Notes under the pieces: generated by a model
Told to the model about the DNA's origin: nothing
What the model saw: the letters and a program-made list of their open reading frames with translations, nothing else
Database searches by the model: none
IMG/VR virus record: IMGVR_UViG_3300029265_000735
Coordinates: 1 to 23,400 of that record
Source of the DNA: a virus
DNA: 23,400 nucleotides
Direction: 5' to 3' (one strand)
Shown here: piece by piece, positions 306 to 21,852 of the stretch
Layout of the letters: every line of letters starts with the position of its first letter
Numbering within the stretch: the stretch's first letter is position 1
Program-made: the position numbers and the translations under genes

Positions 306-503
306 ATGAATAAAACACAAAATCAATTCTTAGAAGAATCTACATCTATTGAAATGTTAAAATTCGTACAACTCATCAGTGATGCCGAAGATATGGGGTT
401 GTTAGTAGAAATAGTACATACGGCATTGAAGGATATGAAATCAAACCCATCATCATCACCACTTAGTAGTATGCAAATAGCATCAGATAATTGGGATTTG
501 TAA
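306..503 (+). CDS. small hypothetical phage protein (65 aa)
   Basis: A 65-residue protein with a helical first two-thirds (FLEESTSIEMLKFVQLISDA) and a Ser/Pro-rich linker (SNPSSSPLSS) before a short acidic end. It follows the 106-300 gene by 5 nt and precedes a promoter-like motif at 511. There is no Shine-Dalgarno sequence; the start is preceded by ACACAT. No family is recognised. It is accepted as a gene because of its tight spacing, direction and ordinary amino-acid composition. Confidence 0.65.
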   Translation: MNKTQNQFLEESTSIEMLKFVQLISDAEDMGLLVEIVHTALKDMKSNPSSSPLSSMQIASDNWDL

Positions 504-523
504 AAAATTGTTCGTATATTACA
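491..523 (+). promoter_or_regulatory. candidate promoter, motif TTCGTATATTACA
   Basis: TTCGTATATTACA at 511-523 resembles ATCGTACATTGACA at 1913-1926 and TTCGTATATTGACA at 22321-22334. All three precede genes outside the virion block. A TTG at 491-493 lies 21 nt before the TATATTAC, comparable to the TTG ... TAnnTTTG arrangement described for Bacteroidetes promoters. The downstream gene starts at 549. This is a weak motif in AT-rich DNA. Confidence 0.35.
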
Positions 524-843: not shown

Positions 844-1072
844 ACTATATTAAAGTATTTGAAAAGTTATAATTGGGGGTTAATGGAAGTTATCCTCTTT
901 GGTTATTCCATGTAATACGCGCATTATTATGCGTTTTAACCGCGTCTTCATGCGTTTTAACGCGCAGTAAACCATTTCCTACCACAATCATAACAACCCA
1001 CCAATACTACGAATTACACGCTGTTCTAATCTTTAATATTGGTTGGAATGCTAGCAATTTAATTGTATATTT
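844..1072. other. non-coding stretch with no convincing gene
   Basis: Together with 735-843 this makes a gap of about 340 nt without a credible gene. It begins after the terminator. It contains GAAAAGTTATAATTG at 861-875, which resembles the conserved start context but lacks ATG, and the CG-rich direct repeat at 914-966. It ends in ATATTTATGG at 1067-1076, an imperfect copy of the late promoter motif overlapping the next start. One reading frame from a TTG at 873 is open but gives an unlikely protein. Confidence 0.6.
914..966 (+). repeat. CG-rich direct repeat, ATGCGTTTTAAC(C)GCG
   Basis: ATGCGTTTTAACCGCG at 929-944 recurs as ATGCGTTTTAACGCGC at 950-965, a 21-nt period. Just upstream, CGCAT-TATT-ATGCG around 920-933 can form a small hairpin with the first copy. 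CGCG and GCGC tetramers are concentrated here, while CpG is sparse in the AT-rich DNA around it. It could be a protein-binding site, an RNA structure or a remnant. No coding use is apparent. Confidence 0.6.
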
Positions 1073-1270
1073 ATGGACATAATTAACAAAATCGACATGG
1101 GACACTACGAAGATGGATTTTATGAAATTTACCAAGCTGTTAAAAATGAAGGTAAAAGGATAGAATTTGATGGGCAAATTGAGAAAATGAAGAGTCAAAA
1201 TAAACATCGATTTAAATCCGCTAAGGAGATATGGGAATATGCCTATCTGAGGATAAGTCAAAAAGAATAA
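1073..1270 (+). CDS. small hypothetical protein (65 aa)
   Basis: A 65-residue mixed-charge protein (MDIINKIDMGHYEDGFYEIY...) with a lysine-rich second half (KRIEFDGQIEKMKSQNKHRFK) and a predicted helical end. The ATG at 1073 overlaps an imperfect late-type motif. If that motif is a promoter, the ATG at 1097 (residue 9) would be the more likely start. The next gene follows by 3 nt or 24 nt depending on its start. The family is not recognised. A 90-aa reverse-strand frame over the same bases is a shadow. Confidence 0.6.
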   Translation: MDIINKIDMGHYEDGFYEIYQAVKNEGKRIEFDGQIEKMKSQNKHRFKSAKEIWEYAYLRISQKE

Positions 1271-1779: not shown

Positions 1780-1907
1780 ATATTAGGAATATTGAGAAAT
1801 AAGATATTAGGAATATAGGATAAAGGGAATATGAGGTAATGGAAATATAGGATAATGAGATAATGGGGTAATGAAAATATAGGATAATATGGGTTGGATA
1901 ACCGGAA
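1780..1907 (+). repeat. purine-rich tandem repeat, 32-nt period
   Basis: AATATAGGATAA occurs at 1812-1823, 1844-1855 and 1876-1887, exactly 32 nt apart. A degenerate fourth unit precedes them: ATATTAGGAATAT at 1780-1792, repeated at 1804-1816. Within units there is an 8-nt sub-repeat of the form GATAATGR (GATAATGA, GATAATGG, GGTAATGA at 1851-1874). The + strand has no C from 1760 to 1901. The last unit decays into GGGTTGGATAACCGG. Its role is unknown. Confidence 0.8.
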
Positions 1908-1926
1908 ATTAGATCGTACATTGACA
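1894..1926 (+). promoter_or_regulatory. candidate promoter, motif ATCGTACATTGACA
   Basis: ATCGTACATTGACA at 1913-1926 matches the motif upstream of 549 and 22338. A TTG at 1894-1896 lies 20 nt before TACATTGA, a spacing like that described for Bacteroidetes TTG ... TAnnTTTG promoters. The downstream ATG is at 1948. TTGACA at 1921 could alternatively be read as a sigma70 -35 box, but the matching -10 would overlap the start codon. Confidence 0.4.
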
Positions 1927-3231: not shown

Positions 3232-4047
3232 ATGGATTCTATTATAAGAAAACACAAAGCAAAAAAACAATCTAGAAGATATTTTACCCAAGAAACCGAA
3301 GATGCAATTGTTCAATACAATTCATCTACGGATTCGGGGGAACGTAGTCAATTATATGCCGAATTTATCCATTGGCCCTTTTATAAGTTAACACAAAATA
3401 TAATTCATACTTTTAAGTTTTACTATACTGATGGTGTTGATAATTTAGAGGATCTACAACATGAAATTATAACATTTCTACTATCAAAAATACATCTATT
3501 CAGCCCTGAACGTGGAGCTAAGGCATATTCTTATTTCGGAACTATTGTTAAACGTTGGCTTATAGTTTATAACCAAAAAAATTATAAAAATAAGATTCAA
3601 AATATTCAAATAACATCTTTAAATAACTATTCTAATAATGATAGTAATAAGACAGGATTTGTTAATTCTCCAAGAATAGAAAAGGAAATTAATTCATTAA
3701 TGTTAGACAATAATGAAAATAATGATGGTGATGAGTTAAGTCTTTTAGGATATAAATACGAAGACAAATTATCGGTATTCATAGATTTATATACAAACTA
3801 TTGTACTAAACATATTTATACTATTTTCCCTAAAGAATATGATGCTAAGATAGCAGATGCAATTTTAGAATTATTTAGAAAGAGAGATGCGATTGATGTT
3901 TTCAATAAGAAGGCACTTTACATATACATTCGAGAACAGATTGATGTTAAAACACCAAAAATTACAAAAATTGCAAATGTTTTATATGTTATATTTAAGG
4001 AAAAATATTTATTTTATTTAGAACATAATAGGTTCCCACACAAATAG
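3232..4047 (+). CDS. 55: late-transcription sigma factor, T4 gp55-like
   Basis: A 271-aa protein resembling gp55, the phage sigma factor that directs host RNA polymerase to late promoters. The N-terminal half matches the family pattern: a basic start, RRYFTQETEDAIVQYN (15-30), then a sigma region 2-like stretch at about 48-112 with FYKLTQNIIHTFKF, DLQHEIITFLL and AKAYSYFGTIVKRWLI. Residues 230-262 (REQIDVKTPKITKIANVLY) look like a helix-turn-helix. At 271 residues it is much longer than T4 gp55 (about 185). No obvious gp55-type clamp-binding C-terminus is visible; the protein ends NRFPHK. It is the last gene before the first late motif at 4061, a sensible place for the late sigma. Confidence 0.85.
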   Translation: MDSIIRKHKAKKQSRRYFTQETEDAIVQYNSSTDSGERSQLYAEFIHWPFYKLTQNIIHTFKFYYTDGVDNLEDLQHEIITFLLSKIHLFSPERGAKAYSYFGTIVKRWLIVYNQKNYKNKIQNIQITSLNNYSNNDSNKTGFVNSPRIEKEINSLMLDNNENNDGDELSLLGYKYEDKLSVFIDLYTNYCTKHIYTIFPKEYDAKIADAILELFRKRDAIDVFNKKALYIYIREQIDVKTPKITKIANVLYVIFKEKYLFYLEHNRFPHK

Positions 4048-4060
4048 ATTTTATTTTTTG

Positions 4061-4070
4061 ATATTTATAA
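4061..4070 (+). promoter_or_regulatory. candidate late promoter 1, ATATTTATAA
   Basis: An exact ATATTTATAA lies in the 32-nt gap between the sigma-factor gene and the first virion gene, 9 nt before the ATG at 4080. The same ten bases recur at 7684, 12008 and 19083, each just upstream of a virion gene. The reverse complement contains the T4 late octamer TATAAATA. Confidence 0.6.
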
Positions 4071-4079
4071 CAAAAACAT

Positions 4080-4424
4080 ATGGGACAATTAGACTCAGTA
4101 ATATTTGGAGATAAAAAATTTTCAGACATCTTAGAAGAGATATACAATAACCAAAAGAAAAAAGAATCACAAGTAACAGCACTAATCTCAGAATTAAAAC
4201 CTTTAGTTCAAGAAATAGGTGATGCTACTTTAATCGTACCTCTTATAAAGGAGTATATGGAAATTGGTGTTAAAAATGATGAGCAATTAATTAAAATGGC
4301 TACTATTATCCAACGTGTTATCAATAATAATCCTAACGATGATGGTGGTTTGGGTATTTCTGATGAAGAAAAAGCACAACTACTAGCTGAGATGGATAAA
4401 CTTACAAATAGTAAAAGTGAATAA
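4080..4424 (+). CDS. small helical protein, first gene of the late block (114 aa)
   Basis: A 114-residue acidic protein, probably all alpha: SDILEEIYNNQKKKESQVTA, LISELKPLVQEI and a C-terminal DEEKAQLLAEMDKL helix separated by an Asn/Gly linker (NNNPNDDGGLG). No membrane segment or enzyme motif is seen. It follows the late motif at 4061 and lies 5 nt before the spike gene, so it is expressed late with the baseplate genes. It may be a minor virion protein or assembly chaperone, but I do not recognise the family and the role is inference from position. Confidence 0.75.
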   Translation: MGQLDSVIFGDKKFSDILEEIYNNQKKKESQVTALISELKPLVQEIGDATLIVPLIKEYMEIGVKNDEQLIKMATIIQRVINNNPNDDGGLGISDEEKAQLLAEMDKLTNSKSE

Positions 4425-4429
4425 TAATA

Positions 4430-5659
4430 ATGGCAAAAAGAGCAACAGGTAAATCCGGAGGTGGTTCTTCATCTAATGGTGGAGGAGGCGGAGGTGGTAT
4501 CTTTGCAGCTAGGACTTCACAAATTATATTAGATAATAAAACATTCCCTGATTCTTTTAATAGATTGGGTGATTGGTCTAGTATAGGGACTATCTTCTTC
4601 ACAAGAATAGAATCTCCTTCACCAACCCCTGACCCAACAAAAAAAGAAAGTGCTAAACCATTATTCCCCAACACTAAACATTATCCGTTAATAAATGAAA
4701 TAGTTTATATATTAGGTCTTCCTAATAGCGATAATGCTCAAAATCCAAATAGTACATCTTTTTATTATTTTGCACCTTTAAGTATATGGAGTAGTAATCA
4801 CCACAATGGTATTCCAAACCCATTTGAGAATACAATACCAAATTCTCAACAACAAGATTATACAGAAACCGAAGCAGGTGCCGTGAGAAGAGTTACTGAT
4901 GGGGGTACAGAAATAGAATTAGGATCTACATTTACCGAAAAATTAGATATAAAAACCATTTTACCTTATGAAGGAGATATAATACATGAAGGTAGGTGGG
5001 GGCAAAGTTTTAGGTATGGTTCAACAGTAAACAACGCAGTTATACCAAATCCTTGGTCCAACGCAGGTAAAAATGGTGATCCAATTCTTATTATTAAAAA
5101 TGGTCAACATAAAGACGAAGAAGATCCTTGGGTACCACAAGTAGAAAATATTAATAAAGATTTATCTAGTATTTATATTACTTCAACCCAACAAATACCA
5201 ATTGAACCCCCAAGTACTAATTATAAAGGATATAAAAAACCTCCAACTTCACCTAATGAATTTACAGGAGAACAAATAATTTTAACATCAGGTCGTTTAT
5301 TATTTAATGCTAAAAATGATTCAATATTACTTAATGCAGCTAAAACAATTAACTTAAATTCACTTGAAACTGTAGTAATTGAATCACCCACAACTGTTGT
5401 ACAATCAAAAGAAGTATATTTAGGAGATAAATCAGCAACCGAACCTGTAATTTTAGGTGATAAATTTTTATCTGATTTATCTAAAGTATTAACACAACTA
5501 GTTGCCCTAGGAACGGCTTTACAGTCTCCTGTAGGTACAAGTGTTCCCTTCGTTCCCAACGCAGCAATTCCTGTACCTGCTGTACAGTTAACATTAGAAG
5601 CAAATAGTATGCTTAGTAGTATCCAAACTTATAAATCTAAAGTTTCAAAAACAAAATAA
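4430..5659 (+). CDS. 5: baseplate central spike protein, gp5-like without lysozyme domain
   Basis: A 409-aa protein with the layout of a contractile-tail spike. It has a Gly/Ser-rich N-terminus (residues 9-23, including seven consecutive glycines), a mixed beta domain containing EGRWGQSFRYGS (187-198), a Pro-rich linker (258-276) and a beta-repeat segment at about 280-345 (QIILTSGRLLFNA, SILLNAAKTINL, TVVIESPTTVV) typical of the trimeric beta-helix needle. T4 gp5 is about 575 aa with a lysozyme domain between OB-fold and needle. Here no lysozyme motif is visible and the protein is shorter. The C-terminus adds an Ala/Val/Pro-rich helical tail. It overlaps the next gene by one base (TAATG). Confidence 0.75.
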   Translation: MAKRATGKSGGGSSSNGGGGGGGIFAARTSQIILDNKTFPDSFNRLGDWSSIGTIFFTRIESPSPTPDPTKKESAKPLFPNTKHYPLINEIVYILGLPNSDNAQNPNSTSFYYFAPLSIWSSNHHNGIPNPFENTIPNSQQQDYTETEAGAVRRVTDGGTEIELGSTFTEKLDIKTILPYEGDIIHEGRWGQSFRYGSTVNNAVIPNPWSNAGKNGDPILIIKNGQHKDEEDPWVPQVENINKDLSSIYITSTQQIPIEPPSTNYKGYKKPPTSPNEFTGEQIILTSGRLLFNAKNDSILLNAAKTINLNSLETVVIESPTTVVQSKEVYLGDKSATEPVILGDKFLSDLSKVLTQLVALGTALQSPVGTSVPFVPNAAIPVPAVQLTLEANSMLSSIQTYKSKVSKTK

Positions 5660-7638
5660 TGGGACTAGAAAAAATAATAATAGGTCAAATAACAGGGGCA
5701 ACTGCAAATGCTTTTAAAATGAATCTTGCTATAAGAACTATAAAAGATAAACTTATAGATAAAGTAGTTGAGGAGATTGATAAAGAAATACCTTTTGAAT
5801 TACCTATTAGTACTAAAGAAATATTATTAAGACAGGTTGAATTACCTACTAGTTTCTTAGATCCTTCATATATTAATAATGTTAAGAAAGACATAACTGT
5901 AATACCTGAAGTAAGTAAACAAAAAATTAGGGATGCTTTAGATTTACTAGAAGATAACGTAGCAGTAACCGTTGGAGTTAAAAATGACTTATCAGGAGCT
6001 ATAAATACTTTAATCAAACCTATAACTACATTAGAAACATTATCTACTACTTTAGGTGCTGTAATCCCACCTTTAAAATCAACAGTAACAACATTAAAGC
6101 TAGTTCCACTACCAACATCAGTACCACCAGGTATAGGTATTCCTACTAATGTTATATTAGGATTTGCAACTTCTTTAGATGCATTAAGTTTAATACTATC
6201 AAAAACAGAAGGCCCTCTTGGGATAATAGAGGGTAGTATAGGTTCGATTCAAAAAGTAATTTCTCCATTACTGCCTAAATTAGCGACATTTGACTTCACA
6301 TTCCAACTAATAACAAAAATAATTTCTTTTATTAGACTTCTACTATATAGTAATGATGTTAATCAAACAGATATTAATACAGTAATGGCTGCGACAGCAA
6401 CCAAAATAACATCAAATTTATCAGCTAACCCAGGCCCATTTACTTCAAATTCTAATCCTGATGATAATATCCTAGCCGATAAAGTATTATTAGCGAGATT
6501 ACAACCAGGTGCACTAAACCCACTAGTATATAGAGGTTACCAACTAGAAATTCAATATGATCCTGATAATATCTTTTATTTTCCTTCAAGGAGAATTAAA
6601 GGTTCATACATACCAGGATTCTTAATAAATAGTATAATAAGTATTGGAGGAACTTTTGGCAGTTCTCTCCAAACAACTAATAATGTAAGACTTTCGGCTA
6701 AGCTCGAGGGAGATGTTCGTTATAATTTACCTAACTATACATTAACTAATCCACCAACAGTAATTAGTAAAACCCCAACATCAAGAGGAAATACTCCAAC
6801 TAAAACATTTTTCCCTGCCCCATATTCATTTTCATCATCAGTACAAGTTTTACTAAGTGAAATTAAATATGAAATAGACCAATTTATTACTGATAGAGAC
6901 AGTATAATAGCAAATGAGATCTCAAATATTGTAACAGATAAAAATTCAATTCCTATAGGTTTTATCCCAAACACACCTGGAATTAGTTTAAATACACAAG
7001 ATCAAGCCGCGATTGATTATGTACTCCAAACAACTTCAAAGTTAACTAACTCACCTTCAAATAATACTATAAATACAAATAGGAATATTGGGGTTGTTTA
7101 TAAATCATACATCGCCAGAACTGAGAAAAGATCTTGGGTTAGAGATTCATTAAATATAAAAATAGGACGAATACCAGATCAGTATGGTATAAACTTAAAT
7201 TTTATAGGTAGTAAGGCATCAAATTATGTTATTAGTAATGGTGGGACAGTTCTTCCTGATTATGATACTTCACTATTCCCACCTGCATCTACAAATCAAT
7301 TGCCTAATACTCCAAGCAATTCATTTGCATCCCCAGTATATACCTTCCCACCATTTGGATTATCAGGTGTAATAGGTGAGGTAAAAAGATTTATACCAAT
7401 CTCAAATAGTGGATTAACACCAACAAACACAGCATCAGTACAATTTTTTAGATTTGAATCAATTCTTCCTACTGGTGGACCTTATTCAAATGTTAATATA
7501 ATGGGAACTTGGGTTAGGGCTCAACCCAATGTTTCACCATTCACAACACCCGGTAGTTTTAATGGTGAAACTCGTACAAAGGTGGGATTTTTATATTACT
7601 GGCATGAATCAACTTTAAGTTGGTCACTTTTCCCCTAA
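5659..7638 (+). CDS. large virion protein of unknown function (659 aa)
   Basis: Residues 1-245 are Leu/Ile/Thr/Val-rich and helical, with repeated amphipathic stretches (LIKPITTLETLSTTL, VIPPLKSTVTTLKL), no clear signal peptide and no obvious catalytic motif. Residues 250-659 look beta-rich with Ser/Thr/Asn/Pro-rich segments. They include the distinctive VYKSYIARTEKRSWVRD (about 478-494) and end in YYWHESTLSWSLFP. Translationally coupled to the spike (TAATG) and upstream of gp25, it is most likely a baseplate hub or spike-associated structural protein. No T4 counterpart is recognisable; a hub (gp27-like) role is possible but unproven. Confidence 0.7.
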   Translation: MGLEKIIIGQITGATANAFKMNLAIRTIKDKLIDKVVEEIDKEIPFELPISTKEILLRQVELPTSFLDPSYINNVKKDITVIPEVSKQKIRDALDLLEDNVAVTVGVKNDLSGAINTLIKPITTLETLSTTLGAVIPPLKSTVTTLKLVPLPTSVPPGIGIPTNVILGFATSLDALSLILSKTEGPLGIIEGSIGSIQKVISPLLPKLATFDFTFQLITKIISFIRLLLYSNDVNQTDINTVMAATATKITSNLSANPGPFTSNSNPDDNILADKVLLARLQPGALNPLVYRGYQLEIQYDPDNIFYFPSRRIKGSYIPGFLINSIISIGGTFGSSLQTTNNVRLSAKLEGDVRYNLPNYTLTNPPTVISKTPTSRGNTPTKTFFPAPYSFSSSVQVLLSEIKYEIDQFITDRDSIIANEISNIVTDKNSIPIGFIPNTPGISLNTQDQAAIDYVLQTTSKLTNSPSNNTINTNRNIGVVYKSYIARTEKRSWVRDSLNIKIGRIPDQYGINLNFIGSKASNYVISNGGTVLPDYDTSLFPPASTNQLPNTPSNSFASPVYTFPPFGLSGVIGEVKRFIPISNSGLTPTNTASVQFFRFESILPTGGPYSNVNIMGTWVRAQPNVSPFTTPGSFNGETRTKVGFLYYWHESTLSWSLFP

Positions 7639-7683
7639 TCCCTATACTTTATAATAAAAAACATACAAAAATTAATTACTTTA

Positions 7684-7693
7684 ATATTTATAA
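7684..7693 (+). promoter_or_regulatory. candidate late promoter 2, ATATTTATAA
   Basis: An exact ATATTTATAA lies in the 59-nt gap after the 659-aa gene, only 4 nt before the ATG at 7698. It would drive the gp25-gp6 segment. The short spacing leaves little or no room for a leader if it acts as a -10 element. Confidence 0.6.
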
Positions 7694-7697
7694 TAAA

Positions 7698-8069
7698 ATG
7701 AAGACAACAGAATTAAAAAAACTAATAAAAGGCGCCGTAAAGGAAGCTATTCAAGAAGAATTGAAAGAAATTCTATTGGAAGCTGTTCGCGCTCCGAGGA
7801 TTAGTAACACTACTGCCATGTCACCAGTTATGGAATCTACTATAATGAGTACTCCTCCAACAAATATAGCACAACCTACTAACCAAACATTATCAGAACA
7901 AGAGAAGAGAGAAGCATATAAAAATATCTTAGGTGATATGTCCTCTCCAATTAATTCCAATAGTGCCCCAGGAACATTTCAACCTCAAGCAGGGTATGAT
8001 GTTGCTAATGGATCTCTACCAGGAGGTGCTGTCGATATGGATCAGATTATGGGATTAATGAAAAAATAA
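7698..8069 (+). CDS. small helical protein upstream of gp25 (123 aa)
   Basis: The frame is open from an ATG at 7620, but that start would overlap the preceding gene and translate the late motif. The ATG at 7698, right after ATATTTATAATAAA, is chosen, giving 123 residues. Residues 1-32 form a charged amphipathic helix (TTELKKLIKGAVKEAIQEEL). The middle is Ser/Thr/Pro/Met-rich and disordered (about 36-80), then come a short helix (EQEKREAYKNILGDM) and a Gly-rich tail ending MDQIMGLMKK. It lies 6 nt before gp25, so probably a late virion or assembly protein. The family is not recognised. Confidence 0.75.
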   Translation: MKTTELKKLIKGAVKEAIQEELKEILLEAVRAPRISNTTAMSPVMESTIMSTPPTNIAQPTNQTLSEQEKREAYKNILGDMSSPINSNSAPGTFQPQAGYDVANGSLPGGAVDMDQIMGLMKK

Positions 8070-8075
8070 AATATT

Positions 8076-8483
8076 ATGGCACAGATAATAGCAAACAAAA
8101 ACCCAATTGATAATCAACCCCGAAAGGCGGTTGGTTTTGGATTTCCATTAAATGGTGATGCTGTTTTTGTACCTACATATACAACACGAGAACAAATAAA
8201 ATCTAACTTAGTTAATTTTTTACTTACCAATAAAGGAGAAAGAGTATTTAAACCTAACTATGGGGCAGATTTAAGAAGTAGAGTTTTTGAATTGTTAGAA
8301 GGAAGTAATTTAGATGATTTAGAAAGCACAATTACAGAGTATATAGCAACACAATTCCCTATAGTAGAAGTAAAACAAATAGATTTTGATCCTCAACCTG
8401 ATAATAATACTTTGTATTTTACATTAACTTATCAAGTAGTTTTATTAGGATTTGAAGACACCGTAAATATATTATTACAATAA
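8076..8483 (+). CDS. 25: baseplate wedge protein gp25 (GPW/gp25 family)
   Basis: A 135-aa protein matching the gp25/P2 gpW family of baseplate wedge subunits, close to the T4 size (132 aa). The hallmark is residues 41-72: IKSNLVNFLL, TNKGERVFKPNYGADLR and VFELLEG. The Glu of the KGER segment is the conserved EPR-type position. A beta-strand end (TLYFTLTYQVVLL) follows. The protein joins the inner wedge to the sheath/tube end of the baseplate. Its stop overlaps the start of gp6 (TAATG), the usual order for this pair. Confidence 0.93.
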   Translation: MAQIIANKNPIDNQPRKAVGFGFPLNGDAVFVPTYTTREQIKSNLVNFLLTNKGERVFKPNYGADLRSRVFELLEGSNLDDLESTITEYIATQFPIVEVKQIDFDPQPDNNTLYFTLTYQVVLLGFEDTVNILLQ

Positions 8484-10354
8484 TGGCAAACTTACAAAGA
8501 GATATACGATATATTGATAGAGATTTTAATGATTTTAGAAGTTCTCTTATTGAATATTCTAAAACATATTTCCCTAACACATATAATGATTTCACCCCAG
8601 ATTCTACTGGGATGTTATTTATTGAGATGGCTTCATATGTTGGAGATGTTCTATCATTTTACCTAGACAATCAGGTTCAAGAAACATTTATCCAACATGC
8701 TCGTGAAACTGAAAACTTATTCAATATGGCTTACATGTTAGGTTACACTCCAAAAGTGACAACTGTAGCCTCTGTTGATATTGATTTCTTCCAACAACTC
8801 CCTGCAAAAACGGTAGGTGGGATTGCAGTACCAGATTATGATTATGCTTTATTAATTCCACAAAATACTTCGATTACGTCTAATACAGATACAAACCAAA
8901 AATTTATAATTGAAGATATAATTGATTTTTCATCATCAAGTTCATTAGATCCAACAATAGTATCTGTATATCAGCTTACGGGAACAGTTCCAACCTCTTT
9001 CTTACTAAAAAAATCAAGAAAAGCAATTTCAGCAAATATCATTACCACATCATTTGATTTTACATCCGGTATTAGGTTTGATACTCGTAATCTTAATGCT
9101 AATAACATAATTGGTGTTTTAGACGTATTTGACGATCAGGGTAATGAATGGTATGAAGTACCTAACCTAGCCCAAGAAAATGTATTTGATACAATACGAA
9201 ACACTAATACTAACGATCCTAATGTAGTTGATGATGGTACAGGTAATGATGTTCCGTATTTATTACAACTGAAACAAGTGCAAAGAAGATTTGTATCTCG
9301 TTTTCAAAATACAGGATCTTTACAACTCCAATTTGGGGCAGGTAATTTTGGAGATAACGATGAAGAAATCGTTCCTAATCCTGATAATGTTGGGTTAGGT
9401 TTACCATTTGAAAAAACGAAACTTACAACAGCATTCTCACCCTTAAATTTTGTATTTACAAATACTTATGGTATAGCACCTTCAAATACAACCTTAACGG
9501 TTAGATATTTAACAGGTGGAGGAATTTCATCTAATGTTGAATCCGGTACTTTAACAACTGTAAATGGTAGTGGTATTAAATTTATAAATACCAATATTAC
9601 TAATACAGCACTAGCAAATCAAATTTTTAACTCAGTTGCTTCCAATAATGTTATAGCAGCTAATGGTGGTCAAGATGGAGATACAACCGAGGAATTAAGA
9701 CAAAATGCTTTAGGTAATTTCCAAACCCAACTTAGAACTGTAACTAGAGAAGATTATTTAATTAGAGCAATGTCTATGCCCTCAAATTTAGGTGTAATTG
9801 CAATGGCATTTGCTGAATCAGTTAAAGTAGCAGAATATGAAACAGGAACCTTACCAGCAATATTAGACTTATATGTTTTATCTTATGACATTGATACAAG
9901 ACTAAGAACAGCATCTCCAACTTTGAAACGGAATTTAATGACATACCTATCAGAATATAGAATGATAAATGATGCCATTAATATTAAAGATGCTTTTATA
10001 ATTAATATAGGATTAGATTTCGATATAGTAGTTAGACCTAACTTTAATAATAACGAAGTTTTAACTAAGTGTATAGCAGCTTTAACTAATTATTTCAACA
10101 TAAAAAATTGGCAAATTAACCAACCAATCATATTTAGAGATTTATATCTACTTCTAGATAAAATAGAAGGTGTTCAAACTGTTAAAAATTTATCAATTGA
10201 TAATAAAGCAGGTGGGGCTTTGGGGTATAGTACGTACGCTTATGATGTTATAGGAGCTACAGTAGATGGTGTAGTTTATCCTTCAATAGACCCAATGGTT
10301 TTCGAAGTTAAATTTCCAAACACAGATATTAGAGGTAGAGTAGTACCATTATAA
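8483..10354 (+). CDS. 6: baseplate wedge protein gp6 (baseplate J family)
   Basis: A 623-aa protein, close to T4 gp6 (660 aa), the main wedge subunit forming the inner ring of the baseplate. The N-terminus is characteristic: IRYIDRDFNDFRSSLIEYSK, then TPDSTGMLFIEMASYVGDVL and SFYLDNQVQETFI. The baseplate-J core is at about 394-445, with GGQDGDTTEELRQNAL, RTVTREDYLIRAMSMP and GVIAMAF. The C-terminal part (residues about 505-600) is the alpha/beta end domain with IFRDLYLLLDKIEGVQTVKNL. It is coupled to gp25 by a one-base overlap and lies 10 nt before the next gene. Confidence 0.93.
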   Translation: MANLQRDIRYIDRDFNDFRSSLIEYSKTYFPNTYNDFTPDSTGMLFIEMASYVGDVLSFYLDNQVQETFIQHARETENLFNMAYMLGYTPKVTTVASVDIDFFQQLPAKTVGGIAVPDYDYALLIPQNTSITSNTDTNQKFIIEDIIDFSSSSSLDPTIVSVYQLTGTVPTSFLLKKSRKAISANIITTSFDFTSGIRFDTRNLNANNIIGVLDVFDDQGNEWYEVPNLAQENVFDTIRNTNTNDPNVVDDGTGNDVPYLLQLKQVQRRFVSRFQNTGSLQLQFGAGNFGDNDEEIVPNPDNVGLGLPFEKTKLTTAFSPLNFVFTNTYGIAPSNTTLTVRYLTGGGISSNVESGTLTTVNGSGIKFINTNITNTALANQIFNSVASNNVIAANGGQDGDTTEELRQNALGNFQTQLRTVTREDYLIRAMSMPSNLGVIAMAFAESVKVAEYETGTLPAILDLYVLSYDIDTRLRTASPTLKRNLMTYLSEYRMINDAINIKDAFIINIGLDFDIVVRPNFNNNEVLTKCIAALTNYFNIKNWQINQPIIFRDLYLLLDKIEGVQTVKNLSIDNKAGGALGYSTYAYDVIGATVDGVVYPSIDPMVFEVKFPNTDIRGRVVPL

Positions 10355-10364
10355 AATAAAAAAT

Positions 10365-11420
10365 ATGGCAGTATATAAAATTTTTCCAACAAAAGATGCT
10401 TCACTTTATAGTGAATTTCCCAGTATGAATACGGGGTTAGACGAAATTATTGAAGCCTCAACTTATTTTGTTTTAGGTCAACCTCAAGTTAACAGGTATC
10501 TAATACAATTTTCAACTACAGAAATACAAGGTATTTTGAATGATAAAGTTAATGGTGCTTCATTCTCATCAAGTTTAAAAAACTCTGCTGCAGTTGTAAC
10601 AGCAATTAATCTCGACTCAAAATTAGAGGTGCATACAGTATCTGGTAGTTGGGGTATGGGAAGTGGTAAATCTTACGATAAACCAAAAGTAACTAATGGT
10701 TGCAGTTGGTTTTTTAGAAGCTACTCAGGCTCTAATGCTTGGGTTAATACAGGTAGTGATGCTTATGCATCACCAATTTACTCACAATCATTTTCATATG
10801 GTAGTCCAATTGATCTTTCAGTAAACGTAACACCTTCAATTTTATCATGGCATAGTGGTTCAATTCCAAATGATGGTTTTTTAGTTAAACAACCTTCAAG
10901 TGCCGAATTTGTTCAAAACCCAGCAGTGGTATCTACTTTTAAATATTTTTCAATTGATACAAATACAATTTATCCTCCATTTTTAGAATTTGGGTGGGAT
11001 GATTATACATTTAACACAGGTTCATCTACAAATACAATTTTAGGTACATCACAGACATTTATGTCAATTTATAACAATGTTGGTACATACTATTCTCAAA
11101 GTGTAGCTAGAATGAGATTAGCCGCGATACCAAAATATCCTGACAGACAATTTATTACATCATCATATTATACGACAAACTACTACCTACCAGAAACAAC
11201 ATCATTGTATGCTATTAAAGATACAGAAACAAATGAATTTGTAGTTGATTTTGATAGTAATTTCACAAAAATAAGTGCAGACACAACATCAAGTTATTTT
11301 GATGTTTACATGAATGGTTTAGAACCAGAAAGATATTATACAGTATTAATCAAAACATTATTAGATGGTACCACTCAAGTGTACGATGAAGATATAATGT
11401 TTAAAGTAATTAACGGTTAA
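10365..11420 (+). CDS. virion protein with N-terminal DNRLRE-like beta domain
   Basis: Residues about 3-120 resemble the DNRLRE (CBM96-type) domain, a beta-sandwich best known from secreted and cell-surface proteins: KIFPTKDASLYSEFPSMNTG at the start, NRYLIQFS as the strand after it, KLEVHTVSGSWGMGSG and TNGCSWFF later. The middle is Ser/Tyr-rich beta structure. The end (KISADTTSSYFDVYMNGLEP, YYTVLIKTL) looks like a fibronectin/Ig-type strand set. It has no membrane segment. Located straight after gp6, it sits where T4 carries gp7/gp8, so it is probably a baseplate-peripheral or fibre-attachment protein. A glycan-binding role is inference from the domain resemblance. Confidence 0.7.
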   Translation: MAVYKIFPTKDASLYSEFPSMNTGLDEIIEASTYFVLGQPQVNRYLIQFSTTEIQGILNDKVNGASFSSSLKNSAAVVTAINLDSKLEVHTVSGSWGMGSGKSYDKPKVTNGCSWFFRSYSGSNAWVNTGSDAYASPIYSQSFSYGSPIDLSVNVTPSILSWHSGSIPNDGFLVKQPSSAEFVQNPAVVSTFKYFSIDTNTIYPPFLEFGWDDYTFNTGSSTNTILGTSQTFMSIYNNVGTYYSQSVARMRLAAIPKYPDRQFITSSYYTTNYYLPETTSLYAIKDTETNEFVVDFDSNFTKISADTTSSYFDVYMNGLEPERYYTVLIKTLLDGTTQVYDEDIMFKVING

Positions 11421-11422
11421 CT

Positions 11423-11962
11423 ATGCCCATAACTCCACCAAGACCAGAATCACCACCTATATCTGATAATCCTACTAATACAGGATTACCACCTTTAGGT
11501 TCAGGGATGGATCCATCACTTAGGGAAAAATCACCAAAGTTAGATGCCGCTGATAAACAGGTTGCGGCTAGTTCATTATTAGAATTATCTAATTTAAATA
11601 GAACTGTATTCGATAAAAATAAATTCAATGAAACAGTTGATACTTCATTCTCAGAACTCGGAGATACAGTCCAACCTGATCCAAGTTTTTTTGATTTAGA
11701 CTTGGCTACCCAATCTGACTTTTGGATATTATACGACAAGTTTTTTTACGAAATACCTAAAGAAGGAGATACAAATTCACATGAATACCTAGCTAAGACA
11801 AGTGGCGATTATGTTAATTTTGAAAGAGATCAAACCGCAATTCAAGAATTATTAGAAGAAATATCTCAATTAAGAATAGAAAATTTAGATTTAAGAACCG
11901 ATGCTGTAAGTTTAGAAGTTGAGGCTGCAACAGCAAATGCCGCTTTAGCAGCTAGTGTGTAG
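11423..11962 (+). CDS. Pro-rich and coiled-coil virion-cluster protein (179 aa)
   Basis: Residues 1-33 are Pro-rich and probably disordered (MPITPPRPESPPISDNPTNT). The middle holds an aromatic, acidic stretch (FFDLDLATQSDFWILYDKFF). Residues about 137-175 form a strong coiled coil (QTAIQELLEEISQLRIENLD) ending in an Ala-rich tail. It starts 2 nt after the preceding stop and is the last gene before a 59-nt gap with a late motif. It may be an adaptor between the wedge and the giant protein that follows. The family is not recognised. Confidence 0.75.
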   Translation: MPITPPRPESPPISDNPTNTGLPPLGSGMDPSLREKSPKLDAADKQVAASSLLELSNLNRTVFDKNKFNETVDTSFSELGDTVQPDPSFFDLDLATQSDFWILYDKFFYEIPKEGDTNSHEYLAKTSGDYVNFERDQTAIQELLEEISQLRIENLDLRTDAVSLEVEAATANAALAASV

Positions 11963-12007
11963 TAATTAGTAGGATAAGAACAAATAGACAAGTAGATTGT
12001 TTTAAAA

Positions 12008-12017
12008 ATATTTATAA
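12008..12017 (+). promoter_or_regulatory. candidate late promoter 3, ATATTTATAA
   Basis: An exact ATATTTATAA lies 4 nt before the ATG of the 2333-aa gene, in the 59-nt gap after 11962. Here the sequence continues as ATATTTATAAATA, so TATAAATA is also present on the + strand at 12013-12020. That forward octamer is not shared by the other three sites. Confidence 0.6.
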
Positions 12018-12021
12018 ATAA

Positions 12022-15000
12022 ATGGTAACGGAAGTAACATCATCAGTAGAATTAATAGATCCAAATTCACTTTCCCAAGATGGGTATGAATTAGTAGATC
12101 AAAAGATAATCCCAAATGAAGACATTCGTTCATCATTTGTACCATTTCAAGATTTAGTAGAATTTTGGGTATATGATGCCAATAAAAATCTTCTTGATGG
12201 GGTATATAATTTTATAGACTATATATTGGTACCAGATCCAGATTCTAAATTGGTTTCGGTTAATGGGGAAGATCAACCCTCAAATACTAGTAAATTAGAA
12301 TTAAATCCAACCCAAGATACAGCTAATTTAGGATATGATGTTGGTGAGATGAATACTGTTTATAATTTTATTACTTATAAATTAGGTTCAACTCAAGAAA
12401 CAAAGTATTTTATCTCAGAAATTTCTGCAGATAGAACAGAGTTAAGATTAAGCACTAACTTTATTGAGAATGCCTCGATGCAGGCTGAATATGTAGATTT
12501 CAAAGCTGAGATGGATAGTAATATCTACTTCGATGAATTTTACCTAAATTTCGATAATAACCAATACCAAGTATGTGTAAATTCACAACTTGATACCTCA
12601 GCTGACCAATACACAATTTTAATAAAACTATATGAGGCCTTACCTCCTAAATTTAGTTTAAAGGATGAATTATCTGTAGTTGTAAAAGCAGCAGAATCTG
12701 TTGCCTATAAGGTAACTCACCCACCTTTAGAAGCTTTAATATTATCTGATGTAACCTTTCTTAAGGGTCCCAATACTAATTTAAAGATTAATGATTTTTT
12801 AAATAATTCAACAGAGTTACAATCAAAAGATGATTTATTAAATACAGCATCAACTGCATCAGCTGATAGTTTATCTAATGTTTTAAATCAAAAGGGTATA
12901 GCATTAACTCCAAACTATTCATATGATACTTTCCACGAGTTTATTAATTTTTCATCCGCACAGAGAAGAATTGAAAATTTTGTTGAAAAAGTAACACAAA
13001 TACAATCATATGAATCTGACATAGCAACTTTAAATGCTATAACTGGTTTAACATCAGGTTCTGTACAAGTATCTTCAAGTGTTGCAACAGCAACCCTAAA
13101 TATTGAAACATTAATAAAGAATTTTGATGGATATGAATATTCATTATATTATAGTTCGGGTTCATCATCATACCCTAAAACAGGATCATACCAACCTTAC
13201 GAATTACTCCCAACTACAGATGTTAGAGTCTCAGTATGGTTAGGTAGTGATGTTGAAGATTCCCAATATTATGGTGGAATATCATTATCAGCATCTTTAT
13301 TTGATAATAGTAATCAAAACTGGTTATATTACACAATACCAGAATTTATTAGGGATAATGGTGATAACAACCAATATTTAGAATTTTCGAATATGGTTGG
13401 CCAACATTTCGATGAAGTGTGGTTATATACAAAATCAATTACAGAAAAATTAAATACAACTTCTCAGTTAACAGATGGTGTTCCTTTAGATTTAGCTGAT
13501 GATGTTATTGCATCTTTAGGTTATGATGGTTTTGGTAGTAATTTCAATAATCAAGATCCATACATAGGTTTAATAGGTGAAAATAATGGTATTTATGTTC
13601 CTCCAACAGGAAGTGAGTTAATTACAAATTATATAGCTGTTAATAATGGTGAAGTTGTCAATTATTGGAATCCTGAATATTCATTTGAAAATTATGTTGA
13701 ACAATTAAATAATCCAGGTTACCCCTATGCAATCGATAAAGTAAGTAAAGAAATATTTAAACGTCTTTACCACAATATGTCTTACCTTGTTAAGAAAAAA
13801 GGTACAATTAGTGGATTGAGACAACTTATTAATATTTGGGGTATACCAAACACCATCCTTCGTATCAATGAGTTCGGGGGTAAGAATAAAGACAATATAG
13901 ATGACTATGATTTATGGTATAATAGATATAGCTATGCTTTTACTCCCGTATCAACTCAAAATGTAGCAAGTGCATCTGTTGTATTTCCTTGGATGCCATT
14001 GGAAAGAAATAGAATAGCAGAGGATAAATATATAGTACCTGATAACTTCCAATTTAGATTTAAAACTACAGGATATCCATCTTCATCTAATTCCGGTGAG
14101 TTTTTTACTCAATCATTAGCAGTTAAAAAATCAGATGGTAGCATCACAAGTACAGAATTTGATTTTGGTATTAGTTTATTTTACGAACCCGTAGTAACAG
14201 GTTCATATTCCGGTTCACATTCAAGTGAATATGAAAATTGGGGTAAAATGCGTTTTTATATGTCGGGATCTGTGGCTAATGGTGGTGTAGCAACGTCAAA
14301 TGACATATACCTACCATTTTATGACAAAGGTTGGTGGAGTATAATGCTCCAACGTAATCAACACGTAAGTGCCAGTAATAATACAGAAGATACAACATAT
14401 ACACTATATGCTAAAAATAAAATCAATAATGGTGCTGATGGAAATAGTATAGGATTTGAAGGATCAGCAAGTATAATATCCAATGATTCAGAATCAATAA
14501 ATGAATCATGGAATAAATTTGGTTTAGACGAAAATGACGGAATTTATTTAGGTGGATTTGTTTCAGGTTCAATTGTAGGTGGAGTTACAACTGGTTTACC
14601 AGGTAAAATATTCTCAGGTTCCTTACAAGAATTTAGATATTATTCAAACGATATACCAGAAGCAACATTTAATGATTTTGTTATGAATCCTGAATCAATC
14701 GAGGGTAATAATATTACAGGATCTGAATCATCATTTGATATAGTTAACTTTAGGGCACCATTAGGTAATGAATTAGAAAATGTATTTACATCTTCTTTAA
14801 GTTCATCATATAGTGATGAATTAACATCTATGCACCCTGCAATTCAAGGTACAGCAAATATATTAATAACAGGTTCATTTGTTAATCCAACAGGTAATGT
14901 TACTTCAAGTGTCTATAATATACTGTATTACGAAAATTCAACAACAAAAACATATAGTAAAACGAATACTGAAGTTTATTTCTTAGATCAACCTGCAATT

Positions 15001-18000
15001 GGATTTAGAAATAGAATTTCAAATAAAATACAAATCCGAGACGGTGAAGATTATGGTACAATTTTATCAAATAGAATTAGTATCCAACAAGATTACCAAA
15101 TAAGCCAAAGTTATACTGAAAATATAAATAATTTAGAAGTTGCTTTTTCACCACAAGATGAGGTAAATGACGATATTATTGCTTCGTTTGGGTATGGCGT
15201 AATAGCAGATGCTATTGCTGATCCTAGATTTTTATCATCATCAGATGATTATTACCCACAACTAAGAAAAATTGCAGAAGATTACTTTAAGAAATATACT
15301 GAAGGTAATGCCTATGATTATTTAAGATTAATTGGATATTTTGATAATTCAATATTTAAAGCAATTAAATCATATGTTCCTGCTCGTACAAGTGTTTCTA
15401 CTGGTATTGTAATTAAGCAACATATGCTTGAAAGAAATAGATTCCCACCAGTAGAAATATCTGAGGGAACTATAGTAGCAGTAACACCTTCAGGTAGTAT
15501 GAATACTCCTATCATAATGGAGAATATAATAATATCAGGTAGTATTGAAGTAGTTAACCAAGAAACAACAGTAGAGGGAGGTACCGGAAATTCATTATCT
15601 AAGTTTAATTATGTAGGTAACCAATTCCTAAAACAATCAGGCTCAAATCAAGGCAATCCTGCATCTGCCTCATTTTTTGAAATTCCAATTTCACAATCTT
15701 GGAATGATAGTATTGCTACAATAGTAGGACTAGAAACATTTGTAAGAGATGAACAAGATGAATTTTATGATGGTGAATTTAGTGGTAGTGAATTAATAGT
15801 AACTACACAATCACTATTTGACAACCCTTTTGCTAGAACTTCAAATATAAATATCAGTTATAAAACTGAAGTAAATAACATACAATCAACACTCCAACCT
15901 ACAAATAACCATTATACAACACCTGCAAATTTTGCAAAATTTGCAAATGGTCATGCCTATGGTTCAAATTCACCAGTATTAATAATAACGGGAAGTGCGT
16001 ATAATAATTCTTATACTTATGAGTCATTCCAAGCAAATGCACCAACAAATATTGGTAATCCCACTACAGCAACAACATTTTATAATGGTGGGCAAGCCCC
16101 AATAGTAGTGGGTTTATGGAGAACAGGTTTTTCCGATGATCAAACTCAAGGACCTGCTCCTACTAGTGTAGCTGATACACAAAATTATTACGTATCATAT
16201 ATAATAATACCTGAAGAATTAGATCCAAGATTAGGTTTATCTCTTTTAACATCATACCTAGACAATTCAGTCGTATTTGGGGATGGTGGTACAACAAATT
16301 CCTCACATAATCCCTCACCTAGTGGTAGTTACCCATACGAGAGATATGGTTATAATGATTTAGCACCATATTTTAGATTAGAATTAACCTCTTCATTTGG
16401 GGAATGGGATAATGGTAGTAGTACAAAAATAGATTCAGAATTTGGTAATCTTCCATATACTACAATTGACACATCTACTATGAATAATAGAGCATCTACA
16501 GTATTTGATGAAATACCCTCATCTGGTGGTGTATATTTAGGAAAAAATGGGAAAAAGTGTAGATATCAATATTTTAATAATTCTAGTAATTATGAAGAAT
16601 CACGACCTATAACATTTGCCCCTAATTTGTTAGGAGAAGAATACAAATTTCCCCAATTAACAGCATCTTTCATAATTGCCGAACCTACACAAGCTGGTGG
16701 TTATAAAAGTGTATATGCAATTGATGAATCAACACCTGGAACCCCTGTACAATACCCATCATCTCAAGGAGATTCAGGTTCATTTCAATGGTTAATTACT
16801 AATTTTAAAACAGCACAAAATTCAGCATTTGATAATTTAACATCTGATCCAGTACTTATAAGTACAGCTAGTTTATATACATTCCCAGTAAATTTTACGA
16901 ATTCATTTAGCGGCGTAACAGCAGCCACTGATGATCTATTTTTTAACGGAGGTGGTCAATTAATTCCCACTGCATTGTCAATTCATAATAGGAGTCGTGA
17001 TCCATTGGATAGTACTAATATTAACAATAACTTACCATCATTTCAACTAAATCCAACAATAAAATTTTCATTAGACCATTTATCTACTATTGAACCAGGA
17101 AAACAATCAAATTTTATACTAACGGATCAGTTGATATCATCATCAAAACCCTCAACTCCTACTACATCAACCAATTATCTGTACAACCCAATTGGTAGTA
17201 GAGTAAACTATGGGAAACCTAACTTTTCTCTTCGAACTACTTTAGCATCTCAATATATCATAAACCCATACATTTTAGATTTTAAAATTCCCTTCTTTGA
17301 AAATAGTATATATTATGCAACACCTAATAATTTCAATGCTAATAGACCAAACACCGAAAGATATATAGTTGAAAACCAATTTGGTATAAATACAATATCA
17401 AATCTAAAAGCAATTGCATCAGGCTCAGCAATAAAAGCACAAACCCCCAATAGTAATTACACAGCAAAGAAGGTAATACTCCCAAGATATTTAGGTACTA
17501 AAATAACTAGTGCTAACTATAACACATTCTCACCATCAGGAAGCACATCACAATCTTTTGCTAATGGTACAACTGGTAGTTGGGGTGGAGATAATGTTTA
17601 TGGTAAAACAGCAGCTATTGATAAAAATTCAATATACTTTGCCCATTTCCAATCATCAAAAGAAAACTATGAATTAAACGGAACATATACTTTTAATATA
17701 GATCAATTAATTGAAGTCCCATTTGAAGATATAACTGAAAATTCACTTACCATTGAACCTAAAACAATTAAAGTTGATGGTTCAAATAATAATCTACTAA
17801 CGATAGCTAATACATTTGAAAAATCTAGAAATGTAATGGTTTCATATCAATCTAAATATTTACCCGCTGATTTTATTAATATCGAGGAATCTGGAGGTAT
17901 CTATATCTCCCAAACAGGATCCTCAACAATAGATTATAATACTTTAACATCTGAAGGAAATTTAATAGCTCAAGGTGGTTTAGAATATTCAACTCTAATG

Positions 18001-19023
18001 ACAAGCCAACCAACACCAATAACAACTTTATCCTCAATGAGTTTACAGATTGGTGAGAATATTGATATATTCTTTGAGGGAAGTGGTTTATCCCCATCTA
18101 CAGGATTAATTAATGGGAAAGAAGCTATAGGTTATTCATACTCAACTCCTAGAAATATACCCGTTACTTCAGGTGGTGTGGCTACATATGGTAGTGCTAG
18201 TTGGATGATTACAGGTAGTGGATATTTACAATTAGAAGGCCCAGCAACTTTAATGTCATCATCATTAGTAATTCTTAATCCTGCAGATCCAGTTCCACCA
18301 ACAACAATTCAGGAACAACTATATTTTGGTAGTTTATTATCTTTAGCTCATAGTTACAACTATTGGGTTAAAAACCAATTACCGGCATCATCTGTTTCAT
18401 CTGGTTTTAATCCTATTGGAGTCCAACCAGGTATCCCTACTAATTCAGAAATAAAACCTCAAATTGAATCAAATTATTTTAAATTCAATGTATCTTCTTC
18501 AAAAGCCGGAGCAAGTACTTTGGGATATACTAATTTTGATCTACCCTTTATAATAGAACGAGGAGATGAAATTAGGGTTACTTATAATACTGCAGCAGAT
18601 TCATCAGCAATCCAAATATTTGAAAACCAAGATTTTGTAGTAACAGATATACCGGATAGAGGATTTGATCTTACTAATGATATACAATTCATACAGAAAG
18701 ACGAAACAATAGGAGCTGTTAGTGGTATTCAAAGTAATAGAGCCTTTAATAGAATTAATGTAATACCCGACCCTAGTACACTACCAATAAAAATATTAGG
18801 TGGAAAAATAAGTAATTTTACAATTAGAAGAAGAATTAATACTGATGACAGGGTAGTTGTCTTCCAAACACCTCCACTTAACTCAAGAGGATCACAAACC
18901 CCAACGAAGGATGGTTTTTTAATACCTGAAGACATGACAGATATTCAGAAGAGAAATATAAATACATTAATAAACCAATTAAGAAGTCAAAATGCTGTAG
19001 AACCAAACTCAGATTCTACATAA
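12022..19023 (+). CDS. giant baseplate/tail-fibre protein (2333 aa)
   Basis: At 2333 residues this is by far the largest gene. Order of parts: a beta-rich N-terminal region (1-430) opening with SSVELIDPNSLSQDGYELVD; a helical region (about 436-510) with YLEFSNMVGQHFDEVWLYTK; a tail-protein-I-like segment at about 583-621 with KKGTISGLRQLINIWGIPN and ILRINEFGGK; a concanavalin/LamG-like beta domain (about 676-893), with strands FQFRFKTTG, KMRFYMSG, WWSIMLQRN and GSLQEFRYYS; a second helical segment (1050-1148) with YPQLRKIAEDYFKKYTEG and FKAIKSYVPARTSVSTGI; then about 1180 residues of Ser/Thr/Asn-rich beta sequence. After gp25-gp6, the P2 gpW-J-I order suggests a gp7/gpI-like wedge part fused to long fibre-like domains. 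That fusion is inference. Confidence 0.75.
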   Translation: MVTEVTSSVELIDPNSLSQDGYELVDQKIIPNEDIRSSFVPFQDLVEFWVYDANKNLLDGVYNFIDYILVPDPDSKLVSVNGEDQPSNTSKLELNPTQDTANLGYDVGEMNTVYNFITYKLGSTQETKYFISEISADRTELRLSTNFIENASMQAEYVDFKAEMDSNIYFDEFYLNFDNNQYQVCVNSQLDTSADQYTILIKLYEALPPKFSLKDELSVVVKAAESVAYKVTHPPLEALILSDVTFLKGPNTNLKINDFLNNSTELQSKDDLLNTASTASADSLSNVLNQKGIALTPNYSYDTFHEFINFSSAQRRIENFVEKVTQIQSYESDIATLNAITGLTSGSVQVSSSVATATLNIETLIKNFDGYEYSLYYSSGSSSYPKTGSYQPYELLPTTDVRVSVWLGSDVEDSQYYGGISLSASLFDNSNQNWLYYTIPEFIRDNGDNNQYLEFSNMVGQHFDEVWLYTKSITEKLNTTSQLTDGVPLDLADDVIASLGYDGFGSNFNNQDPYIGLIGENNGIYVPPTGSELITNYIAVNNGEVVNYWNPEYSFENYVEQLNNPGYPYAIDKVSKEIFKRLYHNMSYLVKKKGTISGLRQLINIWGIPNTILRINEFGGKNKDNIDDYDLWYNRYSYAFTPVSTQNVASASVVFPWMPLERNRIAEDKYIVPDNFQFRFKTTGYPSSSNSGEFFTQSLAVKKSDGSITSTEFDFGISLFYEPVVTGSYSGSHSSEYENWGKMRFYMSGSVANGGVATSNDIYLPFYDKGWWSIMLQRNQHVSASNNTEDTTYTLYAKNKINNGADGNSIGFEGSASIISNDSESINESWNKFGLDENDGIYLGGFVSGSIVGGVTTGLPGKIFSGSLQEFRYYSNDIPEATFNDFVMNPESIEGNNITGSESSFDIVNFRAPLGNELENVFTSSLSSSYSDELTSMHPAIQGTANILITGSFVNPTGNVTSSVYNILYYENSTTKTYSKTNTEVYFLDQPAIGFRNRISNKIQIRDGEDYGTILSNRISIQQDYQISQSYTENINNLEVAFSPQDEVNDDIIASFGYGVIADAIADPRFLSSSDDYYPQLRKIAEDYFKKYTEGNAYDYLRLIGYFDNSIFKAIKSYVPARTSVSTGIVIKQHMLERNRFPPVEISEGTIVAVTPSGSMNTPIIMENIIISGSIEVVNQETTVEGGTGNSLSKFNYVGNQFLKQSGSNQGNPASASFFEIPISQSWNDSIATIVGLETFVRDEQDEFYDGEFSGSELIVTTQSLFDNPFARTSNINISYKTEVNNIQSTLQPTNNHYTTPANFAKFANGHAYGSNSPVLIITGSAYNNSYTYESFQANAPTNIGNPTTATTFYNGGQAPIVVGLWRTGFSDDQTQGPAPTSVADTQNYYVSYIIIPEELDPRLGLSLLTSYLDNSVVFGDGGTTNSSHNPSPSGSYPYERYGYNDLAPYFRLELTSSFGEWDNGSSTKIDSEFGNLPYTTIDTSTMNNRASTVFDEIPSSGGVYLGKNGKKCRYQYFNNSSNYEESRPITFAPNLLGEEYKFPQLTASFIIAEPTQAGGYKSVYAIDESTPGTPVQYPSSQGDSGSFQWLITNFKTAQNSAFDNLTSDPVLISTASLYTFPVNFTNSFSGVTAATDDLFFNGGGQLIPTALSIHNRSRDPLDSTNINNNLPSFQLNPTIKFSLDHLSTIEPGKQSNFILTDQLISSSKPSTPTTSTNYLYNPIGSRVNYGKPNFSLRTTLASQYIINPYILDFKIPFFENSIYYATPNNFNANRPNTERYIVENQFGINTISNLKAIASGSAIKAQTPNSNYTAKKVILPRYLGTKITSANYNTFSPSGSTSQSFANGTTGSWGGDNVYGKTAAIDKNSIYFAHFQSSKENYELNGTYTFNIDQLIEVPFEDITENSLTIEPKTIKVDGSNNNLLTIANTFEKSRNVMVSYQSKYLPADFINIEESGGIYISQTGSSTIDYNTLTSEGNLIAQGGLEYSTLMTSQPTPITTLSSMSLQIGENIDIFFEGSGLSPSTGLINGKEAIGYSYSTPRNIPVTSGGVATYGSASWMITGSGYLQLEGPATLMSSSLVILNPADPVPPTTIQEQLYFGSLLSLAHSYNYWVKNQLPASSVSSGFNPIGVQPGIPTNSEIKPQIESNYFKFNVSSSKAGASTLGYTNFDLPFIIERGDEIRVTYNTAADSSAIQIFENQDFVVTDIPDRGFDLTNDIQFIQKDETIGAVSGIQSNRAFNRINVIPDPSTLPIKILGGKISNFTIRRRINTDDRVVVFQTPPLNSRGSQTPTKDGFLIPEDMTDIQKRNINTLINQLRSQNAVEPNSDST
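15924..15945. repeat. perfect 22-bp palindrome inside the giant gene
   Basis: GCAAATTTTGCAAAATTTGC (15925-15944) is its own reverse complement, and the flanking T and A extend it to 22 bp. It lies in frame and encodes part of a PANFAKFANGHAYG segment. It may be a coincidence of Ala/Asn/Phe/Lys codons in AT-rich DNA, or a protein-binding site. Confidence 0.5.
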
Positions 19024-19082
19024 TAATTCAAGGAGATGCTAGTATTTAATAGAATAGCTTGGATTAAAAACAAAAATAATGT

Positions 19083-19092
19083 ATATTTATAA
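19083..19092 (+). promoter_or_regulatory. candidate late promoter 4, ATATTTATAA
   Basis: An exact ATATTTATAA lies in the 85-nt gap after the giant gene, the longest gap in the late block, 16 nt before the ATG at 19109. It would drive the three remaining virion genes. Confidence 0.6.
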
Positions 19093-19108: not shown

Positions 19109-19777
19109 ATGGGATATTTAAATAACCAAGTAGTAACAATTGATGCTATTTTAACAACAAAAGGCCGAGAATTACTTGCTATGGGTGATGGTGGGTTTAA
19201 TATAACACAATATGCGTTATCGGATGACGAGATTGATTACACTATGTACAATCCAAGTCACCCATCAGGATCAGCATATTATGGTGAAGCTATTGAAAAT
19301 ATGCCTCTATTAGAAGCATTCCCAGATGAAACACAAATAATGAAATATAAATTAGCTACACTACCTCGTGGTACTAGTAGATTACCTATATTAAATACTC
19401 CACCAAGCGTTGTATTACAACAATTAGCTACACAAGCTTTAACTCCAACAACCCTAAATTATATCTCAACATCAGAACCAAGTGGGTATACATTTACTGT
19501 TTCGGATGCTAGATTATTTTCAAGTTTCCAAGGTACAGGAATTGAAACTGCAAATGCAGCAGCATTAAATACATCAATAATATCAACAACAAATGGTACT
19601 AATGTTTCACAAACTGTAATAGGAACTACATTAACAATGGCTGCGACAGGAGTTAATACATTATTTGGTTCTCAAACATCCCTATATGCCACACTTACGA
19701 TAGTTGGTAGAGATAGTGGAGCAAGAGTACAAGTTCCAATTACTATAAATAAATCAGCTACCACAACAGGTGCATAA
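19109..19777 (+). CDS. conserved T4-type phage virion protein, unknown function (222 aa)
   Basis: The N-terminal 95 residues form a compact module that looks strongly conserved: MGYLNNQVVTIDAILTTKGR, ELLAMGDGGFNITQYALSDD, then NPSHPSGSAYYGEAIENMPL and EAFPDETQIMKYKLATLPRG. I recall similar proteins among uncultured marine T4-type phages, annotated only as structural. The rest is Ser/Thr-rich and ends in a beta-strand set (SLYATLTIVGRDSGARVQVP) resembling an Ig-like fold. No enzyme motif is seen. It follows its own late motif and is followed 23 nt later by the first fibre-type protein, so it is probably a tail or baseplate surface protein. Confidence 0.75.
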   Translation: MGYLNNQVVTIDAILTTKGRELLAMGDGGFNITQYALSDDEIDYTMYNPSHPSGSAYYGEAIENMPLLEAFPDETQIMKYKLATLPRGTSRLPILNTPPSVVLQQLATQALTPTTLNYISTSEPSGYTFTVSDARLFSSFQGTGIETANAAALNTSIISTTNGTNVSQTVIGTTLTMAATGVNTLFGSQTSLYATLTIVGRDSGARVQVPITINKSATTTGA

Positions 19778-19800
19778 CAAAGGTATAATAAAAAAACAAA

Positions 19801-20853: not shown

Positions 20854-20858
20854 AATGG

Positions 20859-21848: not shown

Positions 21849-21852
21849 AAAT

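Follow-up and report, generated by a model that had tools for sequence, protein, structure and literature searches.

A conserved TATTTAT(A) element before virion gene blocks of T4-like phages: very probably a late promoter whose consensus has changed

What is the role of a ten-base sequence that recurs before the virion genes of a T4-like phage? The sequence, ATATTTATAA, was found in a viral DNA of 23,400 nt (the window), which is the entire deposited record; the genome-wide test was therefore run in relatives. The first-pass annotation had taken the element for a late promoter and had offered two accounts of it, namely the T4 late element used in the opposite orientation, or an altered element that coincidentally equals the reverse complement of the T4 one.

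Results

ATATTTATAA occurs in the window as four exact copies, all on the plus strand. The copy at 4061..4070 follows a gene for a sigma-like protein (3232..4047) and heads the operon 4080-7638. The copy at 7684..7693 heads the operon 7698-11962, which includes gp25- and gp6-like genes, and is retained in front of the orthologue in dozens of relatives. The third, at 12008..12017, precedes a 2333-aa gene (12022-19023) and is also kept in relatives, while the fourth, at 19083..19092, heads the operon 19109-22299 and is kept before MGYLNN genes. The gaps that hold these copies (32, 59, 59 and 85 nt) are the four longest of the virion block, and the downstream ATG follows after 9, 4, 4 and 16 nt, respectively; positions, gaps and distances were re-measured and all agree with the first-pass annotation. 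Shuffled sequences gave an expectation of 0.99 copies, and four were reached in 1 of 100 shuffles. Taken alone, the count in the window is slightly above chance, and it is the relatives that settle the matter.

A tblastn search with the gp6-like wedge protein returned matches in the cultured Flavobacterium phage immuto (160 kb), in Microcystis phage Mel-JY01 (190 kb) and in one uncultured phage, each covering >99% of the query. The strand-wise enrichment count and the comparison with related phages, both proposed in the first-pass annotation, were run in the relatives and indicate that the element lies on the sense strand before genes and that its placement is not random. In the window and 57 related loci from IMG/VR, ATATTTATAA was present in the sense direction ≤40 nt before a plus-strand gene in 97 of 115 cases; the reverse complement on the same strand occurred five times, once before a gene. 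In dozens of contigs the sense-strand element stands before orthologues of the four window genes, and both its flanks and its distance to the ATG vary. Because the count of 97/115 includes near-identical contigs and orthologues that are not independent, we examined a second sample of 78 separately fetched loci, for which the sigma-like protein served as bait. The octamer TATTTATA followed the sigma-like gene within 110 nt in 71 of these 78 loci and the core TATTTAT in 77, six of them with a base other than A next; in the remaining locus the contig ends before the site. The consensus of 89 distinct sites from the clade is ATATTTATAAtaAA, and no conserved upstream (-35/-33) box was detected in these 89 sites.

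The whole genome of immuto (NC_055915.1; loci L062-L065) gave the same picture. Fifteen of 17 copies of TATTTATAA lie ≤30 nt before a gene, a number expected to be 0.7 from position shifts and reached in none of 2000. They precede virion genes, e.g. those for gp20, the sheath, the tube and the tail spike. In addition, the octamer TATTTATA stands before terL, before the genes for hub and tape measure, and before a small number of non-virion genes. The major capsid gene of immuto has no copy of the element within 65 nt. The earlier statement that the motif marks the head of every late virion operon is thus too broad as to "every".

The orientation of the element follows that of the gene in nearly all relatives. 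In contig G005, which is reversed, a minus-strand gene follows 15 of the 20 copies on the minus strand, and a plus-strand gene follows none of the 13 copies on the plus strand; in Mel-JY01 two minus-strand examples have matching orientations. Contig G004, which shows no orientation bias, is the exception. Mel-JY01 (PP395634.1; L066-L069) has TATTTATA without TATTTATAA because TTATAA is avoided in this genome: the hexamer occurs twice in 190 kb, compared with 215 TATAAT and 400 AATATT. The avoided hexamer is a palindrome and perhaps a restriction site.

A second promoter class was recognized in immuto. At ~61-76 kb a strong element, GTTG-N20-TAHHTTTAGgTATcaatAATTAAAA, precedes many small genes. 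The -33 GTTG is present at 22 of 27 early-type sites, at 2 of 24 late immuto sites and at none of the 89 late clade sites. From their gene content and the T4 precedent we infer that the two classes correspond to early and late expression. In the window, the imperfect copy ATATTTATGG (1067-1076) looks like a member of the early or a mixed class, with TTG 20 nt upstream of TATATTT; the whole candidate, TTG-N20-TATATTTATGG, spans 1043..1076 on the plus strand. The first-pass annotation correctly noted such a copy, but the start at 1073 that the copy was said to overlap is doubtful: the true start of the gene is probably 1097 (MGHYEDGF), which matches the relative L007. Two further plus-strand candidates of the early type are pattern matches only, TTG-N21-TATATT at 491..520 before gene 549 and TTG-N20-TACATT at 1894..1922 before gene 1948. 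Upstream of the latter gene, at ~1770-1905, the window contains degenerate ggaatat/aggataat repeat units; the region ~740-1000 is gene-poor and includes a terminator-like hairpin at about 818-844 as well as, at about 930-962, two gcgttttaac repeats.

The gene at 3232..4047 (plus strand), which lies directly upstream of the first site and is kept together with it in relatives, encodes a candidate for the reader of the element. Pfam Sigma70_r2 matched weakly in 11 of 14 members of the protein family, the window protein scoring under the curated cut-off. The full structural model has modest confidence (pLDDT 64). Residues ~1-119 align with sigma factors in all of the reported matches, with a best Z of 10.3 (2.2 Å over 91 residues), a value that helical bundles may also reach. 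As modelled, the product is a protein with a sigma region 2 domain; its C-terminal domain, modelled alone (pLDDT 83), gave no convincing structural match. The region 2 fold and the location make the protein a likely reader of the late element and a proposed late sigma factor. We infer that it would work like gp55, the T4 late sigma, which has region 2 but no region 4 and is activated by the gp45 sliding clamp. Similarity to gp55 was not detected by phmmer against PDB, hhalign, tblastn or PHROGs, the alignment being shallow. A search for the clamp family PF02916 gave no match in immuto, Mel-JY01 or two contigs, while the T4 control was found. The immuto orthologue is KNV73_gp118 (78174-78872), annotated as a hypothetical protein. 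In L023 and L056 (5037-5912) an insertion of ~58 residues lies inside region 2.

The surroundings of the sites bear on how they act. In five genomes, twelve late sites (two of these sites overlap each other) lie ≤40 nt behind terminator-like hairpins; the expectation from shifts is 0.02-0.10 per genome. Two of the twelve have 3 nt left before the ATG. A hairpin in G005 is followed by a T-run, GA, TATTTATA, 3 nt and the ATG, and G004 has a comparable case. Since 3 nt leave no room for another promoter at such hairpin-adjacent sites, a promoter is the best reading of the element itself. The spacing between element and ATG ranges from 3 to >25 nt, and is mostly 27-43 nt in Mel-JY01; T4's own TATAAATA sites are 14-28 nt from the ATG. 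An apparent preference for spacings in multiples of three is produced by repeated orthologues.

The -7 element of F. johnsoniae covers -12 to -5, and RNA starts 4 or 5 nt further on (PMC6847099); with this geometry an ATG 3-5 nt past TATTTATA would leave almost no leader. Where 4 nt separate the motif from ATGA[A/G], the motif creates an in-frame stop in 19 of 19 distinct relatives, so that this ATG is not misplaced. In T4-type late promoters RNA starts about one helical turn downstream. The T4 geometry (PMC2988020) would put the start inside that ATG, so that the geometry has to be host-like or the start flexible. A sigma70 -10 box, read from TATAA[T/C] within the motif, was rejected, as the RNA start would land in coding sequence at genes whose ATG is only 3-5 nt off.

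Discussion

Judged from sequence, TATTTAT(A) before the virion gene blocks very probably serves as a late promoter, one of altered consensus. The best overall explanation of the four copies, to which we give a probability of about 0.8, is that they are late promoters of a T4-like phage, read by a sigma-like protein that recognizes this consensus. The most likely host is a member of the Bacteroidota. The product of 3232-4047 would join the host RNA polymerase and read TATTTAT as an element of the -10/-7 type, oriented like T4 TATAAATA. RNA would start ~4-6 nt downstream of TATTTAT. For genes with an ATG 3-5 nt away, the predicted late mRNAs are leaderless or nearly so; most F. johnsoniae mRNAs carry leaders (PMC6847099).

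A chance occurrence of the four copies in an AT-rich genome, for which the expectation of about one copy in the window might speak, has a negligible probability and is ruled out by conservation in the relatives (the 57 loci, immuto and the 78 separate loci). It is unlikely that the element acts in RNA, either to signal translation initiation or as an AU-rich site of processing ahead of start codons. Many genes do have a very short spacing between element and ATG, and Bacteroidota, which lack Shine-Dalgarno sites, prefer A-rich starts (PMC6847099). However, most genes have no element, a spacing of 3 to >25 nt is unlike a translation signal, and the sites right after terminators require a promoter there. 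Spacing is longer in Mel-JY01, a phage richer in Shine-Dalgarno-like sites (85 of 238 genes vs 13 of 221 in immuto), which also speaks for a promoter.

A promoter could be read by the host sigma factor (sigma-ABfr, -33/-7) with no phage sigma involved. ATATTT does resemble the host -7 box TAHHTTTG (PMC6847099), and the fourth copy (19083) has a TTG at the right distance. This is equally improbable, because the G and the -33 GTTG are missing from the late sites (GTTG at 0 of 89 in the clade), the promoter classes split by gene content, and the element is kept in a phage recorded from a cyanobacterium. It is still less probable that the T4 late element is truly inverted, with a phage sigma reading TATAAATA on the template strand. 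The octamers TATAAATA and TATTTATA are exact reverse complements, and phage AR9 provides a precedent, since its non-virion RNA polymerase reads the -10 element on the template strand (PMC9209446). Yet TATAAATA appears as TATTTATA on the other strand because both have TAT..ATA ends, and in the same direction they differ at two central bases, AA vs TT. A change of these two bases in the ordinary orientation gives the same sequence and is the simplest account and the best fit. There is no other hint of template reading, and AR9 has its own multisubunit polymerase and deoxyuridine DNA, neither of which is indicated here.

Of the two accounts in the first-pass annotation, the opposite orientation is therefore best regarded as a coincidence of near-palindromy, the orientation to the gene being fixed in nearly all relatives, and the changed element is retained. 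Its wider proposal of a late, strand-oriented promoter element of virion genes is supported by the relatives, the enrichment before genes, the separate promoter class and the placement behind terminators.

These results give a large and little-studied group of T4-like phages a promoter map that can be tested, and they point to an unannotated late sigma factor. They suggest that the tightly kept T4 late consensus has been altered at its center in this clade. The predicted near-leaderless late mRNAs would represent an unusual mode of virion-gene expression in hosts that make no use of Shine-Dalgarno sites. If template-strand reading were true, the T4 promoter signal would be functionally inverted in the clade.

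No published TATTTATA late promoter was found in the literature searched, subscription papers being outside its coverage. The Bacteroidota housekeeping promoter TTTG/TAHHTTTG (PMC6847099) is closely resembled by the early-type GTTG-N20-TAHHTTTAG of immuto. The late core shares with it the T-rich TATTT but, unlike it, lacks both a -33 box and the G at -5; the TTG-type -33/TAHHTTTG -7 pair was not found at the late sites (89 clade, 24 immuto). The late promoter of T4 is TATAAATA, used with gp55 (PMC2988020), and that of cyanophages is NATAAATA (PMC2984593). The clade element differs from both in its central TT instead of AA and in an ATG that is far closer, and from T4 also in a reader without detected gp55 sequence similarity and in the PF02916 clamp not being found. 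With two changes from TATAAATA, TATTTAT(A) is neither the T4-type octamer nor a single deviation from it; it does lie before virion genes and is oriented with them, G004 excepted. In common with the T4 and cyanophage late promoters it is an AT-only octamer at the -10 place, without a conserved upstream box and with AT-rich sequence downstream, which sits before virion genes in phages that carry a sigma-like gene of their own.
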